64,000 nt of DNA from Nitrospira sp. (GTDB lineage Bacteria > Nitrospirota > Nitrospiria > Nitrospirales > Nitrospiraceae), in the NCBI GenBank assembly GCA_029194535.1, contig JARFXR010000002.1, forward strand, positions 186,001-250,000. Reading direction: 5' to 3'. The notes below the pieces were generated by a model. The model did not search any database and was not told the DNA's origin. It worked only from the letters and a program-made list of their open reading frames with translations. Positions 52,844 through 61,213 of this stretch are shown in pieces; position 1 is the first letter of the stretch, and each line of letters begins with the position of its first letter. A program made the translations under genes and the position numbers.

Positions 52844-52920
52844 GCCCCCGTAGCTCAGTTGGATAGAGCAGCGGTTTCCTAAACCGCGGGTCGCACGTTC
52901 AATTCGTGTCGGGGGCACCA
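52844..52920 (+). tRNA. tRNA-Arg (CCU anticodon)
   Basis: 77 nt with CCA encoded. Acceptor GCCCCCG pairs with CGGGGGC; D-arm AGCTCAGTTGGATAGAGC; anticodon loop TTCCTAA; T-arm CACGTTCAATTCGTG. 74 bp after the DUF4340 gene. Confidence 0.96.
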
Positions 52921-53499: not shown

Positions 53500-53742
53500 A
53501 TGAATTGTCATCGTTGCCAAGGTTGCATGGTTCGCGACCATTTCGTGGATCTGTTGGAGAGTGGCGGCGAATGGTGGACTACGACATGGCGGTGCATCAA
53601 TTGCGGCTATGTGCTTGATGCGGTCCTAGAACAGAATCGTCGGAAACAACATGATGAGCGTATGGTCACCGCAGCGTCGATCGTCGTGTCTCAGGACTCA
53701 TGCCTTGACGAGGAATTGGCCGAGCTCGACTCGGCAGCCTAG
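53500..53742 (+). CDS. Small CxxC zinc-ribbon-like protein, unknown
   Basis: 80 aa. Two CxxC pairs (C3, C6 and C32, C35) suggest one zinc ribbon in the first 45 residues. The C-terminal half is charged and probably helical. AAGGGAG lies 6-12 bases before the ATG. I recall close relatives only from Nitrospira-like genomes; function unknown. Confidence 0.75.
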   Translation: MNCHRCQGCMVRDHFVDLLESGGEWWTTTWRCINCGYVLDAVLEQNRRKQHDERMVTAASIVVSQDSCLDEELAELDSAA

Positions 53743-53806: not shown

Positions 53807-53835
53807 TTGTCAGAAACTACGGCCTTCGCTACACT
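53807..53835 (+). promoter_or_regulatory. Promoter close to the start of the degenerate nuclease-domain gene
   Basis: TTGTCA (53807-53812) and TACACT (53830-53835) are 17 bp apart, 5/6 and 4/6 matches. The expected transcription start is only about 7 bases before the ATG at 53849, so the mRNA would be almost leaderless. No Shine-Dalgarno sequence is visible. Confidence 0.45.
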
Positions 53836-53848
53836 TTTTCCACGCATC

Positions 53849-55336
53849 ATGGCACGAGTAAAAGCAGATCGCGCGCGGTCGAAGACCGCAATGCTGGAAG
53901 ACATTGCTCAGGGAATCGAACGTCTTCAGAGCTTCATTCCCCAGATCGAGGATCTGGGACGCGACGGATTTCCTTATCTGGAAGGTGCCCGAGCTCGAAC
54001 CGAACTGCAACTCAAGGAATGCATCAAGAAGACGTTTGGAGACAAGTCGCCGGAATTTCAAACCTACCGACAACATCGCCTCTCCGTGGAGACACCGGCG
54101 GACACGAAGCAGACGGTTGCGCTCCTCAAAAGTCTCATCTGCGCCCTTGAGGACAGGAGATCGGAACTCCAAGGGCTGAAACCTCCGCTCCCAATCGCTG
54201 AGGGGTCAGCCCCAGTCCCAGTACCCCCGACTGCCTCGCCACGACCCTCGTTGGCGCTGGTGCCTCCGTCGACTCCGACAGCCCAGGTGACTATCACCCC
54301 TGCAACTCCTGTTGTACCTCCGCCCATTACGATGTCCGTGGCCCTGACCACGAATCTGGACATGACTCAGCCATCGGCTGTACCACCGGCACCGCTAACC
54401 GGCACTCAGCAGGCAGCACCTGAGCCACCGAACCCAACGCTGAACGCACCGATATCGGCTCCTCTTCCATCTAGTCTCATTGAGACCCCTCAGGCTGCGA
54501 CGAACCCCCAGACGGTCGACGCCTCCAGTGCAATCCCTCGATCACCAGCTCCGGCGCCCTCGACGTCTGAGTCAATTCACCTCTCGACTTCGAACCCGCT
54601 TCCACCTCGTCCCACGGTTCCCGCTGCACCTGTACAATCTTCATTGCAGGAATCCCAAACTATGGCACCCACAGCTGCATCGCTTTCCCTACCGGTATCG
54701 ATGCCGGTGTCGCCACCTATCCCAATATCAGCGTCTCCCGCTGTTGTCGAATCGAAGCTTGCCCCCCCGGATCTCGAACAGTCCGAGGCTGTACCCGTTT
54801 CTTCGATTCCAAAGACCCTGTCCACGGAGTCGTCGCCTTCATCGAAACCACAGTCCTCACCTGGAACCGCCCCAGGACCCGATCCTGCGGAGACGGTCAA
54901 ATCCCTTTGCACGCGGTTCCACACGATCGCCAGACAGCTTCGCCTTCGCGGCGAGTACCGCCCCACGCTGAATGTCGAGGACGAACTCGATGCCCAGGAT
55001 CTGTTACATGCCGTACTTCGAGTTTCCTTCGACGACATCGAGACGAGCGAGTGGGCGCCAGGCTATGCCAACGGCACGCCACGCGCCATGTTCCTTCTCA
55101 ACGACGGTCGCCTTGCCGTCATCGTCAAGAAGACCAAGTCCGGATTGAACAGCAGAGACCTCACGGAGCAGTTGCGGGCCGACATCGAGCATTGCAGAAC
55201 GCTGAAGCGATGCTCGACGCTCCTGTATTTTGTGTACGACCCCGAAGGACGCATCGGCAATCCTCGTGGGCTTGAGAGCGATCTCATCAGTATCAGCGAC
55301 CAATTGACCGTCGACGTCTACGTCGCACCGAAATGA
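53849..55336 (+). CDS. Protein with a degenerate PD-(D/E)XK nuclease-like C-terminal domain
   Basis: 495 aa from ATG 53849. Residues 1-110 are helical (IAQGIERLQSFIPQIEDL; FGDKSPEFQTYRQHRL). Residues ~115-345 are a Pro/Ser/Ala/Thr-rich linker. The C-terminal ~140 residues resemble the DpnII/MboI-type PD-(D/E)XK domain found on other proteins, with LRGEYRPTLNVEDELDAQDLLHAVL and LYFVYDPEGRIGNPRGLE. The catalytic residues look lost: the usual RxDF position is RAMF (Met414), and the usual EVK reads IVK (Ile425, Lys427). It is therefore probably a binding or regulatory domain. An upstream open frame to 53651 overlaps the CxxC gene and was not used. Confidence 0.75.
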   Translation: MARVKADRARSKTAMLEDIAQGIERLQSFIPQIEDLGRDGFPYLEGARARTELQLKECIKKTFGDKSPEFQTYRQHRLSVETPADTKQTVALLKSLICALEDRRSELQGLKPPLPIAEGSAPVPVPPTASPRPSLALVPPSTPTAQVTITPATPVVPPPITMSVALTTNLDMTQPSAVPPAPLTGTQQAAPEPPNPTLNAPISAPLPSSLIETPQAATNPQTVDASSAIPRSPAPAPSTSESIHLSTSNPLPPRPTVPAAPVQSSLQESQTMAPTAASLSLPVSMPVSPPIPISASPAVVESKLAPPDLEQSEAVPVSSIPKTLSTESSPSSKPQSSPGTAPGPDPAETVKSLCTRFHTIARQLRLRGEYRPTLNVEDELDAQDLLHAVLRVSFDDIETSEWAPGYANGTPRAMFLLNDGRLAVIVKKTKSGLNSRDLTEQLRADIEHCRTLKRCSTLLYFVYDPEGRIGNPRGLESDLISISDQLTVDVYVAPK

Positions 55337-55500: not shown

Positions 55501-55755
55501 ATGGCGGACCGGGCCTATGTATTGATTCACGTACTTCCAGGGCAGACCAGCAGCGTCGTCCGGGCGCTACGCGACATTAAACAGATCAAGACCGTAGATC
55601 CCTGCTGGGGCAAACCCGATATCATTGTCGTCGTGGAAGTCGCGGATCAAGACGCCTTGACGCAGTTAGTGCTCAGCCGAATTCATGCCATCGAAGGAGT
55701 GACTCAGACCGACACGCATTTGGTGTATCGATTGAAGGACACCAAGGTCAAGTGA
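55501..55755 (+). CDS. Stand-alone RAM (Lrp/AsnC effector-binding) domain protein
   Basis: 84 aa from ATG 55501, an alpha/beta RAM domain (AYVLIHVLPGQTSSVVRAL; DIIVVVEVADQDALTQLVL; TDTHLVYRL) without a DNA-binding domain. Such proteins bind amino acids or partner Lrp-type regulators. The frame is also open from an ATG at 55333 that overlaps the preceding stop; the extra 56 residues are low-complexity and are less likely coding. GGCGGGG precedes the chosen ATG. GTGA overlaps with the next gene. Confidence 0.75.
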   Translation: MADRAYVLIHVLPGQTSSVVRALRDIKQIKTVDPCWGKPDIIVVVEVADQDALTQLVLSRIHAIEGVTQTDTHLVYRLKDTKVK

Positions 55756-56198
55756 TCACCATCCTTCTTCAAATCGTCCTCTGCCTGTCTCTCCTGGGAA
55801 CCCTCGCGTGTGCTGGGCCCAGAATCCCTCATGAACCAGACATCATTGACGTCATGTTACCGGCTCCGGCCGACAAAGTGAGCACCGCGGTCATTGACGT
55901 ACTGACCGACGGGGGCTACGACATCGATCACAAGGACGATGAACGCCTAGCAACCGACTACCGGCAGGAGATACGGGGCCCCTGGGACTGGATGTTGCGT
56001 TGGCGATTCGGAACGGGAAGGAGTCGGGTGGAAACTCGGGTGACTCCCGCATCGGAGGGAAGCACCAGGCTGCGGCTCCACGTGCTGTATGAGGGAAAAG
56101 ACGGGCTGTTCACCAGGTGGGAGGATTCTCCGACGGCCTTGCCTCAATGCGCTGAAAACCAACTCCGGCTGATCAAGAACGCCCTCCATCTCCTCTGA
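55752..56198 (+). CDS. Putative small lipoprotein, unknown
   Basis: 148 aa from GTG 55752 (the ATG/GTG overlaps the preceding stop as GTGA). N-terminal ILLQIVLCLSLLGTLACAG is a lipoprotein-like signal with a relaxed lipobox and Cys20. The mature part is alpha/beta with VSTAVIDVLTDGGYDIDHKDDERLATDYR. Possibly outer-membrane-attached; function unknown. Likely co-transcribed with the RAM protein. Confidence 0.7.
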   Translation: MITILLQIVLCLSLLGTLACAGPRIPHEPDIIDVMLPAPADKVSTAVIDVLTDGGYDIDHKDDERLATDYRQEIRGPWDWMLRWRFGTGRSRVETRVTPASEGSTRLRLHVLYEGKDGLFTRWEDSPTALPQCAENQLRLIKNALHLL

Positions 56199-56246: not shown

Positions 56247-57668
56247 TCAGTTCGAGGCGGATGTGGTATCGCCTCCATCTCCGTCGTCACCAAGATCCAC
56301 TCCGAAACGGTTCGCCATCCGGTACAGCGTTCGCCGGTCAATGCCGAGCACCTTCGCCGCCTTGACCTTGTTACCCTTCATTTCTTTCAACACGCGTATC
56401 AGGTGGCGTTTCTCCACTTCTTCTAACGTGAGATAGGCCTCGCCAGGTGATTCCGCCGGCTCCACCCGTTGGCTTGGTTCCGCTCCCACCTGCCGAATGG
56501 CAGCCGGAAGATCGTCCGGCGTGAGGAGCGGGCCCCGGCTCAACGACATGGCCCGTTCGATGGCGTTTTCCAGTTCACGTACATTGCCCGGCCACCGATA
56601 TTGTTGCAACAGCGCCAGCGTATCTGGATGAAACCCTCTCACAGCTCGCGTTGCGCCGACGCCCCACTTCTGCAGAAAGTGGTGGGCCAGCATGGGAATA
56701 TCTTCCTGGCGTTCCTTCAGCGAGGGCAACGTGATACGGACGACATTCAGGCGATAGAACAGGTCGTCACGAAACTTCCCCTCCTTGACGAGCTGTTCCA
56801 AGTCCCGATTCGTCGCCGCGATAATCCGCACATCGACCTTGATCGAGGCCGTCCCACCGACCCGCCTCACCTCCTGCTCCTGCATGACGCGCAGGAGCTT
56901 CACTTGTAGCGCCTGCCCCAGCTCTCCGATCTCATCGAGAAACAGGGTGCCTCCACTGGCCGACTCGAAGAGGCCCGTTTTGGTGCCCACCGCTCCCGTA
57001 AAAGCGCCCTTCTCATGCCCGAACATCTCCGATTCGAGCAGTGCGTCGGGGAGTGCACCGCAATTCACCGGCACGAACGTATTCTCCCGCCTGGGACCAT
57101 TGGCGTGGATGGCGCGAGCGATCAATTCCTTACCGGTTCCGCTCTCGCCCTGCAACAACACCGTGCTCTTTCCTTCCGACACCCGGGCGACCAGCTTATA
57201 GACTTCGAGCATCGCGGGACTGCTGCCCACCAACGGCGACCAGTCCTCTTTGCCCTTGAGCTCTTCTCGAAACCGGGCGTTTTCCCGCACCAGGCGGCAG
57301 TGATCCAAGCTCCGTTCGACGACGAGCTTGATCTCCTCCTTTTTGAACGGCTTGGCCAAGTAGTCGTACGCGCCCTGCTTGATGGCCTCGATCGCCCCTT
57401 CCAACGAACCGAACGCCGTCAGGACCACGACGGCGGTGTCCGGACTTGTCCGTTTGAACTCGCGCAGCACCGTGAGGCCGTCCACGGCCCCCATGCGGAT
57501 ATCCGTGAGCACCAGATCCACCGAGCCTTCTCGTCCTCGCGCAATGGCTTCTTCGCCGCTCCCGAAGGCCTCGACGTTGTAGCCTTCCTTTTTCAACGCT
57601 TCCGCCAGCAGCTCCCGAGCCACCGCGTCGTCATCGACCACCAAAATTGTTGCGACATTCATGAGCAT
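56247..57668 (-). CDS. NtrC-family sigma-54-dependent response regulator
   Basis: 473 aa. Receiver domain with phospho-acceptor Asp56, acidic pocket D12/D13 and Lys106; AAA+ domain with Walker A GESGTGKE at 174-181, sigma-54 loop GAFTGA at 221-226 and Walker B GGTLFLDEIGE; C-terminal Fis-type helix-turn-helix (KVKAAKVLGIDRRTLYRMANRFG). It should activate RpoN-dependent promoters. The start is ATG 57668; ATG 57662 (MNVATILVVDDD) is equally plausible. The partner kinase gene ends 2 bp upstream. Confidence 0.95.
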   Translation of the reverse strand: MLMNVATILVVDDDAVARELLAEALKKEGYNVEAFGSGEEAIARGREGSVDLVLTDIRMGAVDGLTVLREFKRTSPDTAVVVLTAFGSLEGAIEAIKQGAYDYLAKPFKKEEIKLVVERSLDHCRLVRENARFREELKGKEDWSPLVGSSPAMLEVYKLVARVSEGKSTVLLQGESGTGKELIARAIHANGPRRENTFVPVNCGALPDALLESEMFGHEKGAFTGAVGTKTGLFESASGGTLFLDEIGELGQALQVKLLRVMQEQEVRRVGGTASIKVDVRIIAATNRDLEQLVKEGKFRDDLFYRLNVVRITLPSLKERQEDIPMLAHHFLQKWGVGATRAVRGFHPDTLALLQQYRWPGNVRELENAIERAMSLSRGPLLTPDDLPAAIRQVGAEPSQRVEPAESPGEAYLTLEEVEKRHLIRVLKEMKGNKVKAAKVLGIDRRTLYRMANRFGVDLGDDGDGGDTTSASN

Positions 57669-57670
57669 TT

Positions 57671-58825
57671 CTATACCGTTGTGTCCGGCTCCGGCATCTT
57701 CCCGGGCAATGTCACCGTAACCACGGTCCCACGGCCGGCTTCGCTTTGGAGAGACAGGCTCCCCCCGTGCGCTGCCACCGTTTCACGGCTCAAGAATAGT
57801 CCCAATCCGGTCCCTTTGCCAACTTCCTTAGTCGTGAAAAATGGATGGAAGGCCCTCTGCACGTCCGCCGCTGGCATCCCAACCCCCGTGTCACGCACGG
57901 CGATAGTCACCATCATCGACGTCATGTCAGGAGCCATGCGGCGCGCCACATCCACCTCCTCGACTGTGGCGGCGCGACCGCTCGCCTGCACGACCACCGA
58001 ACCATGTTGGGGCGTGGCCGCCAAGGCATTCGTGAGCAAGTTGACCAACACCTGATGCACCTTCTCCGCATCGGCCCACACGTAGGGAATCCCGATCGCC
58101 AACTCCACGCTCAAGGACACGCCTTTTGCGTGGAACGCCGGCTCCATCAGTGCCGTGGCCGGATTGATGACCCGCTCCGCCGACATCCACACCGGTTCGG
58201 GTTTGCGCTGTCTCGTCGAGGACAGCAGGTCTTGGATGATCCGGACCACACGGTTGAGCTGCTCGTCGATGACCGTGATGCGCTTCTTCATTTCCGTCGT
58301 GACGCCCGGTTCCTCGGCCAGGGCTTGAACGTGCCAGGCGATCGAATGCAGCGGCGTTCCGACCTCGTGGGCGACCGAAGCCACGAGCTGCCCGACGGCG
58401 GCTAGGCGTTCCGAGCGGTTCAGTTGATCCTTCGCATCGACCAACAGCGTATTCGCGCGCAGCAAACTTTCGGTCTGTTGCGCCAGCGCCGCCTTTGCCG
58501 CTGCCTCCCTGGCTTTCCGCTCTTCCCACGTCACACCGACGTAGGCCACGACCATCAGCACGCCCGCCACGACGGAGCGGTTGATCACCGCGGCCTGAAA
58601 TCGTCCGGGCTTCGTCGGCTGCATCAAGCCCAGATAGGTCGCCGCCAAGCAGCAGACGACGGTCAGCACCATGAGCGCCCGATTACGCAGCCGCGCGACC
58701 AGCAAAATGGGAAACACCAGCCCGTACGCGGCGACGATGTTCGCCGGCGCAGCGGTTTCCAGAATCACAATGACAAGAAAAACGACTCCGGCGACGGCCA
58801 GAAGAATGCGGTTCTGCTTGTTCAT
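57671..58825 (-). CDS. Membrane histidine kinase, partner of the NtrC-type regulator
   Basis: 384 aa from ATG 58825 (the TTG at 58831 is an alternative). Four N-terminal membrane helices at about 6-24, 29-45, 49-68 and 83-98 with almost no periplasmic domain, a short coiled linker, then HisKA with His153 in ASVAHEVGTPLHS, and an ATPase domain with DTGVGMP and GKGTGLGLFLS. The lack of an external domain suggests sensing within or from the membrane. Immediately upstream of the response-regulator gene. Confidence 0.95.
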   Translation of the reverse strand: MNKQNRILLAVAGVVFLVIVILETAAPANIVAAYGLVFPILLVARLRNRALMVLTVVCCLAATYLGLMQPTKPGRFQAAVINRSVVAGVLMVVAYVGVTWEERKAREAAAKAALAQQTESLLRANTLLVDAKDQLNRSERLAAVGQLVASVAHEVGTPLHSIAWHVQALAEEPGVTTEMKKRITVIDEQLNRVVRIIQDLLSSTRQRKPEPVWMSAERVINPATALMEPAFHAKGVSLSVELAIGIPYVWADAEKVHQVLVNLLTNALAATPQHGSVVVQASGRAATVEEVDVARRMAPDMTSMMVTIAVRDTGVGMPAADVQRAFHPFFTTKEVGKGTGLGLFLSRETVAAHGGSLSLQSEAGRGTVVTVTLPGKMPEPDTTV

Positions 58826-58963
58826 CGTCAACGTCCATGGCCGAGGCTACAGGGATCCACGCCTAAGCGGCAAGCCGGCATGGGTGGAGCAAGTCCGCCG
58901 TTGAGAGCGCCGCTCTCCACCCGGAAGGGAGGCCGACGCAGACCGCATCTCCGAAGGAAGGTC

Positions 58964-61213
58964 TTAGCCTAGCGGGCGTATGGAACGCAAGACCGCAGCC
59001 AGGTCTCGCAACCGGGAGTCGATAGGCAGGGTTTCGACCGGAACAGCATACTTTCTATTCCAATTGGGATGGGCATCGATGGTACCCGGCAGGTTGGTCT
59101 GCGACAGTTCCTCCAAGCCGTCCTCCAGATTGGCCAGCACGACGGCGGACATGCTGCCCGCCAGATAGATATGGATGGCCCGGCAGAGGGTCGGCGTCAT
59201 CGAGGATACGGAGTCCGGGTCGGTAGACAAGCCTTCCGGCAACAAGCCCTCGCGGGCGAGTGCCTCCAGCATATGCCCCTTGTCGCGACGACGGTCCTCC
59301 CACGCTCGGCGCTTTGCCTCATCGTCTCCCAGCATCCCCAATCCGGCCCTGACTTGCAGATCCTCACCAGACCAGAAGCCGGTCAACGTCGGCAGGTCAT
59401 GGGTCCCGACGACGGCGAGCGACTGTTCGGGATATTCATTCGGCGCCTTGCAGGTTCCGTCACCGTGGCGTTCGAAGTAGAAGACGCGATAGGACAGGAC
59501 CCTGGCTTTGGCCAGCTCCTCGCGTACCCAGTCGGGGACGGTCCCGAGATCTTCACCGATCACCAGAGTCCTGGCTCGCACGCTTTCCAGCGCGACGATC
59601 GCGAGCAACTCCTCGAATGGATAGTGCACATAGGTACCCTCCGCGGCCGGTTTTCCGCGCGGAATCCAGAAGAGCCGACAAAGCGCCATCACATGGTCCA
59701 ACCTGATCGCGCCGCCGAATCGGAGGTTGTTGCGCAACAGACGGATGATCAGTTCATAACCACCGGCGCGAAGCGCCAACGGATTGGCCGGCGGCAACCC
59801 CCAATTCTGTCCCTGCGGTCCCAGTGAATCAGGCGGAGCCCCGCAGTCGGCATCGAGCGCCAGCACGGATTGATACATCCAAGACTCGGCTCCGAACCGC
59901 TCCGCTCCGAGCGCCAGATCATTGTATAGCCCGATCGCCATACCCGTCTGTTCGGATTTCCTGCGGTTTTCACCCAACTGCTCCGACGCGACCCACTGGA
60001 TATACTGGAAAAACCGCAAACGCTTCCGATGCCGCTTCCCATACTCGCGGACAGCCGGTCCAGGGGACTGAAACTGAGCAGGCCAATCGCGCCACGACGA
60101 CGCCTTGGGTTGAATCAGTCGGCGTTCCTCCTCCAGCGTCTGGAACGTAGCATACAGCTCCAGCGGCTCCCCTTCGGCCCGAATAAACCGCTCGAGGAGC
60201 TTGGCGCGGGCAGTCTTCGGTTCCAAATCAGGCTCGTTTCCGACATAGTGCTCTTTCAAAAACTGCCGATAGGCCAGATCCAGCAAACCGCGCTTCGCTG
60301 CGGCAATGACGTCATAGTCCACTCGGCGGTTTTCGCGCAGAGCCTTGAGCTTGGATTGAAACTCCGGGGCCTGAAACTGACGCTGCGCCTCCGGCGACGC
60401 CCAGAATTCCGGCAGCCGCTCGAGATCGACATAAAGCTCGTTGAGAAACAGACGGGTGACCGGTGCATAGGGACTGGTATGGTGTGGCGCGCTGTTGCGC
60501 AAAGCGTGCAGCGGATTGAGCCCGATCAATCCGGCACCGAGTGAGGCGCCGGCCCACTCGACTACCGCGCCCAGATCCGTAAAGTCCCCGCAGCCCCAAT
60601 TCCGATTCGACGACAAGGCATAGAGTTGCAGCGCTATGCCCCAGATACGCCGGTGATCCGCAAGCGCGGGCGGCAGATAGCATTGCTGAGGCGCCACGAT
60701 CAGACGGATCGTCCCGGACGAGCCGCCTACCAGCCCGGAAGCCTGAACCGTCACTGTGTAGTAACCGATCGACAAATCACCCGGTAATCGGCAGCTCAGC
60801 CGAACGTGACGTTGCCCACCCACGAAACGGACTTCGGCCGCTGACAATCCCGGCCCCGCCTCGCCGGTCTGTACTGGTTGGCCACTTTCATCGCTGATCG
60901 TCCACTGCACCACGACGGACCGTTCCTTGCCGTCTTCAAGCATCAGACAGCAGAAGATGACCGCTTCACCTGTGCCTTCGCGCACCACCAGCACCGGCTC
61001 ACAGGGACGGCACCAAGAAGCCTCATCCCAATCTCGCAAGGCTTTGGAGAGGTCTTCGGTCGAATGGACATTGAATCCCATTGCCGAGAGGATCGCCCGC
61101 TTCGTGTCATCGGAGGCGACGTGCAGCGCCCCGCCGATGTCGTAATATTCCGAGGCGATGCCGACCCGTTCTGCCAGTGTCGCGAGGAGAGAAGAATCGT
61201 AGGAAGCGGACAT
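58964..61213 (-). CDS. malQ: 4-alpha-glucanotransferase (amylomaltase, GH77)
   Basis: Transfers alpha-1,4-glucan segments between maltodextrins. 749 aa, the long MalQ type with an N-terminal ~170-residue beta-rich module. GH77 catalytic residues: nucleophile Asp506 (GGAIRLDHVM), acid/base Glu554 (VIGEDLGTVP) and Asp606 (VGTHDLPTLTGFW). It lies upstream of the two-component genes, facing the same way but 138 bp away; no functional link was shown. It complements GlgP at 41339. Confidence 0.94.
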   Translation of the reverse strand: MSASYDSSLLATLAERVGIASEYYDIGGALHVASDDTKRAILSAMGFNVHSTEDLSKALRDWDEASWCRPCEPVLVVREGTGEAVIFCCLMLEDGKERSVVVQWTISDESGQPVQTGEAGPGLSAAEVRFVGGQRHVRLSCRLPGDLSIGYYTVTVQASGLVGGSSGTIRLIVAPQQCYLPPALADHRRIWGIALQLYALSSNRNWGCGDFTDLGAVVEWAGASLGAGLIGLNPLHALRNSAPHHTSPYAPVTRLFLNELYVDLERLPEFWASPEAQRQFQAPEFQSKLKALRENRRVDYDVIAAAKRGLLDLAYRQFLKEHYVGNEPDLEPKTARAKLLERFIRAEGEPLELYATFQTLEEERRLIQPKASSWRDWPAQFQSPGPAVREYGKRHRKRLRFFQYIQWVASEQLGENRRKSEQTGMAIGLYNDLALGAERFGAESWMYQSVLALDADCGAPPDSLGPQGQNWGLPPANPLALRAGGYELIIRLLRNNLRFGGAIRLDHVMALCRLFWIPRGKPAAEGTYVHYPFEELLAIVALESVRARTLVIGEDLGTVPDWVREELAKARVLSYRVFYFERHGDGTCKAPNEYPEQSLAVVGTHDLPTLTGFWSGEDLQVRAGLGMLGDDEAKRRAWEDRRRDKGHMLEALAREGLLPEGLSTDPDSVSSMTPTLCRAIHIYLAGSMSAVVLANLEDGLEELSQTNLPGTIDAHPNWNRKYAVPVETLPIDSRLRDLAAVLRSIRPLG

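Follow-up and report, generated by a model that had tools for sequence, protein, structure and literature searches.

The window, by which we mean the whole 64,000-nucleotide stretch of Nitrospira sp. DNA analysed here, encodes a protein that has retained the fold of a PD-(D/E)XK nuclease and has lost both of its catalytic acids. The protein very probably no longer works as a nuclease and is under selection for another function. Almost the entire bacterial family keeps this disarmed domain under strong selection, so the domain probably binds rather than cuts. We lean towards the view that the protein is a domesticated pseudonuclease, that is, that it descends from a mobile defence nuclease, no longer cuts and now acts as a tethered binding or adaptor protein. 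Its features and those of its neighbours are collected in Table 1.

Table 1 Features of the disarmed-nuclease locus (positions are those of the window)
Feature	Position	Strand	Basis
Predicted own promoter, TTGTCA-N17-TACACT, -10 ending 13 nt before the ATG	53807..53835	+	Pattern conserved among orthologues
CDS, disarmed-nuclease protein, 495 aa, ATG start	53849..55336	+	ORF; orthologues across the family with the same three-part architecture
N-terminal helical domain, ~residues 1–110	53849..54178	+	AF2, dN/dS, PDC-S35 matches of orthologues
Pro/Ala/Ser/Thr-rich linker, ~residues 111–347	54179..54889	+	Composition; 233 aa at one boundary choice
PF18742 PD-(D/E)XK-fold domain without catalytic D/E, ~residues 348–495	54890..55333	+	Pfam, AF2, VIA-align
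Met414, where the catalytic Asp (EcbAgaN D298) sits	55088..55090	+	Alignment to EcbAgaN, column analysis
Ile425, where the catalytic Glu (EcbAgaN E309) sits	55121..55123	+	Alignment to EcbAgaN, column analysis
Lys427, kept Lys of the ExK motif (EcbAgaN K311)	55127..55129	+	Lys in 73/80 dead-clade rows
Stand-alone Lrp/AsnC ligand-binding (RAM) domain protein	55501..55755	+	PF01037, E 1.2e-12
Small conserved protein (lipo148), N-terminus resembling a lipoprotein signal	55752..56198	+	Synteny
NtrC-type response regulator (RR)	56247..57668	-	Synteny; identified from sequence
Histidine kinase (HK)	57671..58831	-	Pfam, synteny
4-alpha-glucanotransferase MalQ	58964..61213	-	Pfam E 4.2e-108, synteny

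The three parts of the protein

Residues 349–495 match the Pfam family PF18742 (DpnII-MboI) with 163.9 bits (E values of 1.1e-49 to 2.4e-48; the curated cut-off is 27 bits), and both landmark motifs of the C-terminal domain are present in the 495-residue protein. The AlphaFold2 (AF2) model of this domain (pLDDT 89.4) has the order alpha-beta-beta-beta-alpha-beta, which is the canonical PD-(D/E)XK core. The structures listed by VIA-align 2 for the model are mostly PD-(D/E)XK enzymes, with BstYI, BglII, McrC, BamHI and EcoT38I at the top and Can2 also present; the best match, BstYI, aligns over 124 residues with an rmsd of 4.2 and a Z of 7.2, the Z values being in the middling range. Foldseek alone gave no match of the C-terminal model to the PDB at E ≤0.001, and we base the fold assignment on the sequence profile, the model topology and VIA-align 2 together. 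In PADLOC, the profile nearest to the domain is Aga_Helical-REase (E 1.3e-19); this match is restricted to residues 348–493 and does not cover the whole protein. The one named relative compared, from Nitrospira sp. CR1.3, shows 82% identity within the domain.

Of the proteins with a solved structure, only EcbAgaN (PDB 23wq; E=1.1e-4) is a sequence relative at E <0.01. In the hmmsearch alignment to 23wq, Met414, Ile425 and Lys427 lie opposite EcbAgaN residues D298, E309 and K311, with an identical 11-residue spacing from D to E. The EcbAgaN mutants D298A and E309A-K311A are inactive in DNA cleavage (PMC10620215). Of the three residues that mark an active nuclease, the Asp on strand 2 is absent (Met414), the Glu of ExK on strand 3 is absent (Ile425) and the Lys of ExK is present (Lys427). 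The first-pass annotation had described a PD-(D/E)XK-like domain in which Met414 and Ile425 replace the catalytic Asp and Glu and Lys427 is the sole remnant; the equivalent positions and spacing in EcbAgaN indicate that it placed the lost residues correctly, and its view of the domain is borne out by the PF18742 match and the fold model as well. From the sequence we strongly infer that the protein would not cleave phosphodiester bonds by the canonical mechanism.

The linker that carries this domain is ~230–235 residues long in the window protein, depending on the boundary chosen. Over all orthologues, linkers have a median length of 205 residues and are composed of 25% P, 14% A, 11% S and 11% T. 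The median is 88 residues in half-disarmed proteins, which keep one of the two acids, versus 209 in fully dead ones (Mann-Whitney p 1.8e-6, uncorrected for shared ancestry). The linker also contains the motif PPPITMSVALTTNLDM (window positions 54317–54364), which recurs as PPxTMSVAxTTNL in the window's genus and in scattered other members; it is present in only part of the family and is a possible linear binding motif.

The AF2 model of the N-terminal domain shows a four-helix arrangement with a mean pLDDT of 73.9, and a fold search with this model returned generic helical bundles only. Among 36 orthologous N-termini, 11 match PADLOC PDC-S35 (best E 3.3e-4), the window protein itself giving no match. 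A profile-profile comparison with the N-terminal domain of active relatives gave a weak match (E 0.005, probability 7%).

Spread, loss of catalysis and selection

PF18742 is near-core in the window's GTDB family, where 146 of 175 genomes carry it. Elsewhere in the class it occurs in 4 of 94 genomes, all four as distant relatives. These counts come from later whole-genome searches; a scan of genome contigs with the domain had returned one relative only, and no match was found in the phage records searched. The 139 distinct domains of the family comprise two from intact linker-less paralogues, 12 from linker-type proteins with one of D and E, and 125 with neither. None of the 137 distinct linker-type proteins has both, which extends to the orthologues what the first-pass annotation had noted in a single protein. 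Two of the half-disarmed proteins have lost D and kept E (L038 and L047) and ten have lost E and kept D. A maximum-likelihood tree from which the two catalytic columns were left out places the linker-type proteins in a single group (support 100/99), separate from the intact ones. Because D-only and E-only members coexist and represent different first steps from an intact ancestor, at least two losses of catalysis are probable, assuming no reversion; AU tests that compared a single loss of E or D within the clade with repeated losses did not separate the alternatives (p 0.10–0.27). Reduced genomes have lost the nuclease-like gene cleanly, indicating that it is dispensable in some lifestyles.

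In all 16 intact-type homologues examined, D, E and K are retained, as E-x-K and as RxDF or something close to it. This set consists of plasmid, ICE-like and viral-contig homologues, together with the two linker-less Nitrospiraceae paralogues; several copies from E. coli plasmids are near-identical to one another. Many intact relatives adjoin abortive-infection (Abi), integrase or helicase genes, as mobile defence nucleases do. Within the family, an intact PF18742 protein was seen in only three genomes (G017, G041 and G084) and a dead one in ~145. G017 holds the dead L053 and the intact linker-less paralogue L054, and G084 holds a distant intact Aga-type nuclease (RVDL, VEVK) and a contig-edge match to the dead-type domain (L065 4986–5426; L190). 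Three intact PF18742 nucleases lie on enterobacterial plasmids (L133 184–978, L135 169–960 and L137 163–951; the two E. coli ones are IncX1). Several public plasmid records label such intact nucleases 'malate dehydrogenase', a clear misannotation.

The column analysis covered 80 rows of the dead clade. Position 425 is V, I or L in 72 of them and position 414 is T, S, A or M in 66, a pattern that would fit a metal site that has closed. The sole column newly conserved at ≥90% in these rows is a Gly, and no acidic position has been gained. Eleven residues (H358, R367, R371, D378, D381, D384, T429, F461, Y463, D464 and P465) are identical in all 80 rows and are conserved among active relatives too, and near the old active site R412 (72 rows) and R430 (69 rows) are kept along with Lys427. 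Two basic positions that are fixed in active relatives are mostly lost, R398 being kept in 4 rows and K418 in 5, and the H452-P453-D454 loop is likewise mostly lost. Taken with the near-neutral mean pI of the C-terminal domain (~6.4), these losses suggest that nucleic-acid binding may be gone too. The median dN/dS is 0.073 for the C-terminal domain (24 close-orthologue pairs, including the intact L054/L055) and 0.074 for the N-terminal domain (23 pairs). These low values and the fixed columns thus indicate that the protein is maintained and is not decaying. The earlier description of a nuclease fold that persists as a non-catalytic module, carried on a linker rich in Pro (here 230–235 residues), is supported.

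Genomic setting and possible functions

A sigma-70-like pattern, defined by a TTG(T/C)CA-type -35, a spacer of 16–18 nt and a TAGACT-type -10, lies directly before the start in 48 of 71 orthologue upstream regions, compared to 0.07 expected from shuffles; in 42 of those 48 orthologues the -10 ends 11–14 nt before the ATG. As this conserved promoter abuts the start codon, the gene appears to be transcribed as a separate unit, giving a near-leaderless mRNA. The near-leaderless layout (window positions 53807–53848) may be common in Nitrospira. Further upstream, a tRNA gene (52844–52917, + strand) separates an ABC-transporter/auxiliary-protein cluster from the nuclease-like locus, and an 80-residue small ORF (53500–53742, + strand) contains paired CxxC motifs and is zinc-ribbon-like; it precedes the nuclease-like gene only in this genus and a small number of other genera.

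The order of the neighbours, RAM, lipo148, RR, HK and MalQ, is constant in ~70 loci. The RAM protein has matches in 170 of 175 family genomes, including loci without the nuclease-like gene; most family genomes have a second, weaker RAM-protein match elsewhere. Eight loci (genera g17, g19, g20 and g22) keep the RAM-lipo148-RR block with no trace of the nuclease-like gene, and HK and MalQ are also kept there where the contig reaches. Because they persist without this gene, the neighbours are not obligate partners, and they were rejected as an explanation of its function. They are a stable address and give no evidence of a shared job.

In the scheme we propose, a mobile-element defence nuclease with an N-terminal helical domain and a PF18742 domain would have been fixed at one chromosomal locus in the Nitrospiraceae ancestor. 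There it would have lost the metal-binding Asp and Glu and acquired both an extended, flexible linker rich in Pro and a near-leaderless promoter of its own, to be inherited vertically, as it seems to be now, under strong purifying selection. The C-terminal domain may bind a ligand (DNA, RNA or protein once contacted by the nuclease) without cutting it, and the linker would tether this domain to the N-terminal bundle, which may dimerise or hold a partner. The protein would then be a two-headed adaptor or nucleic-acid tether. That it is specifically a nucleic-acid-binding adaptor is quite possible, though we stop short of calling it likely. More tentatively, a Nitrospiraceae ancestor may have captured the nuclease once. 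Changes at different single residues would then have disarmed it in parallel in several lineages, leaving a widely kept cellular protein, specific to the lineage, in which cutting was selected against and the scaffold was kept; its role might be, for example, that of a nucleoid, replication or mRNA tether.

Could the protein still be a nuclease, with catalytic acids that have migrated to an altered site? Migrated carboxylates occur in other PD-(D/E)XK enzymes, among them some restriction enzymes, and here Lys427 is largely kept and the helix-1 acids D378, D381 and D384 are invariant. However, these acids are just as fixed in active relatives and are therefore not replacements, no new acidic column has arisen, and in most rows positions 414 and 425 have become T/S/A/M and V/I/L, respectively, as a closed metal site would lead one to expect. 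Migrated acids were rejected on this column analysis, and we regard an altered active site as highly improbable; a shift of Asp and Glu, which the first-pass annotation had named as a finding that would overturn its view, is likewise at odds with the same-spacing alignment to EcbAgaN. Rpb5 is an inactive nuclease-like fold, and Rpb5 chains appear in the VIA-align 2 list. This, together with the loss of basic residues 398 and 418 and the near-neutral charge, would fit a purely protein–protein adaptor in which nucleic-acid binding has been lost and the fold serves as a protein-docking surface, as in Rpb5-like or assembly domains. That R412, K427 and R430 are largely retained around the former active site argues against such a restriction, which we consider rather unlikely.

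Strict synteny in ~70 loci is what a subunit or regulator of the conserved neighbours (the RAM-domain protein, the two-component system or MalQ) would display, yet the eight loci that keep the block without the gene, and the gene's own promoter, make such a partnership improbable. A regulatory role, raised in the first-pass annotation, is conceivable; the conserved neighbours are independent of the nuclease-like gene. The same annotation had raised a decoy role. A decoy or immunity subunit, in which the dead protein would bind an active paralogue of the nuclease and hold it in check, would be consistent with the presence of L053 and L054 in one genome and with the dimeric state of EcbAgaN (PMC10620215), and incoming mobile-element nucleases could remain its targets. 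Action against active paralogues is unlikely, however, because so few family genomes hold an intact one, and we judge the decoy role to be decidedly improbable. A domesticated pseudonuclease that probably binds without cutting is the reading we carry forward.

Comparison with known systems

Among nitrifiers, Nitrospira hold a major place, yet what many of their conserved genes do is not known. Among such genes, the one for the disarmed nuclease offers a clear ancestry and testable binding predictions. A near-core disarmed domain with living half-disarmed intermediates provides a natural series from a cutting enzyme to a binding protein. Inactivated PD-(D/E)XK domains are already known from RecC (PMC1185551) and COG1395 (PMC1189080); in the literature searched we found no description of this Nitrospira protein, nor of a family-wide, vertically inherited case with half-disarmed intermediates.

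Among the closest counterparts are the linker-less PF18742 nucleases of plasmids and ICEs, including L054 and L055, whose C-terminal domain is 40–50% identical to that of the window protein and whose PDC-S35-like N-terminal domain is possibly related to its N-terminal domain. They differ in that RxDF and ExK are kept, the linkers are short (17 residues in L054) and the genes occur sporadically on mobile elements. EcbAgaN (PADLOC Aga_Helical-REase; PDB 23wq; PMC10620215) likewise has two domains joined by an unstructured link, with a C-terminal PD-(D/E)XK domain, but it retains an intact D-EVK and is a DNA-cutting enzyme that an Argonaute partner activates, whereas in the window protein D and E are gone and the linker is far longer; no Argonaute is present among the conserved neighbours (RAM, lipo148, RR, HK and MalQ). 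The C-terminal nuclease-like domain of RecC (PMC1185551) also has a PD-(D/E)XK fold that has lost catalysis and been redeployed for DNA handling, although it belongs to another family, is part of the RecBCD complex and has a DNA contact established by structure. Finally, the inactivated second nuclease domain of COG1395 (PAB2104; PMC1189080) is a degenerate PD-(D/E)XK domain in a multidomain protein and is presumed to bind nucleic acid; it differs from the Nitrospira protein in being archaeal and in sharing its chain with an HTH and an active domain.
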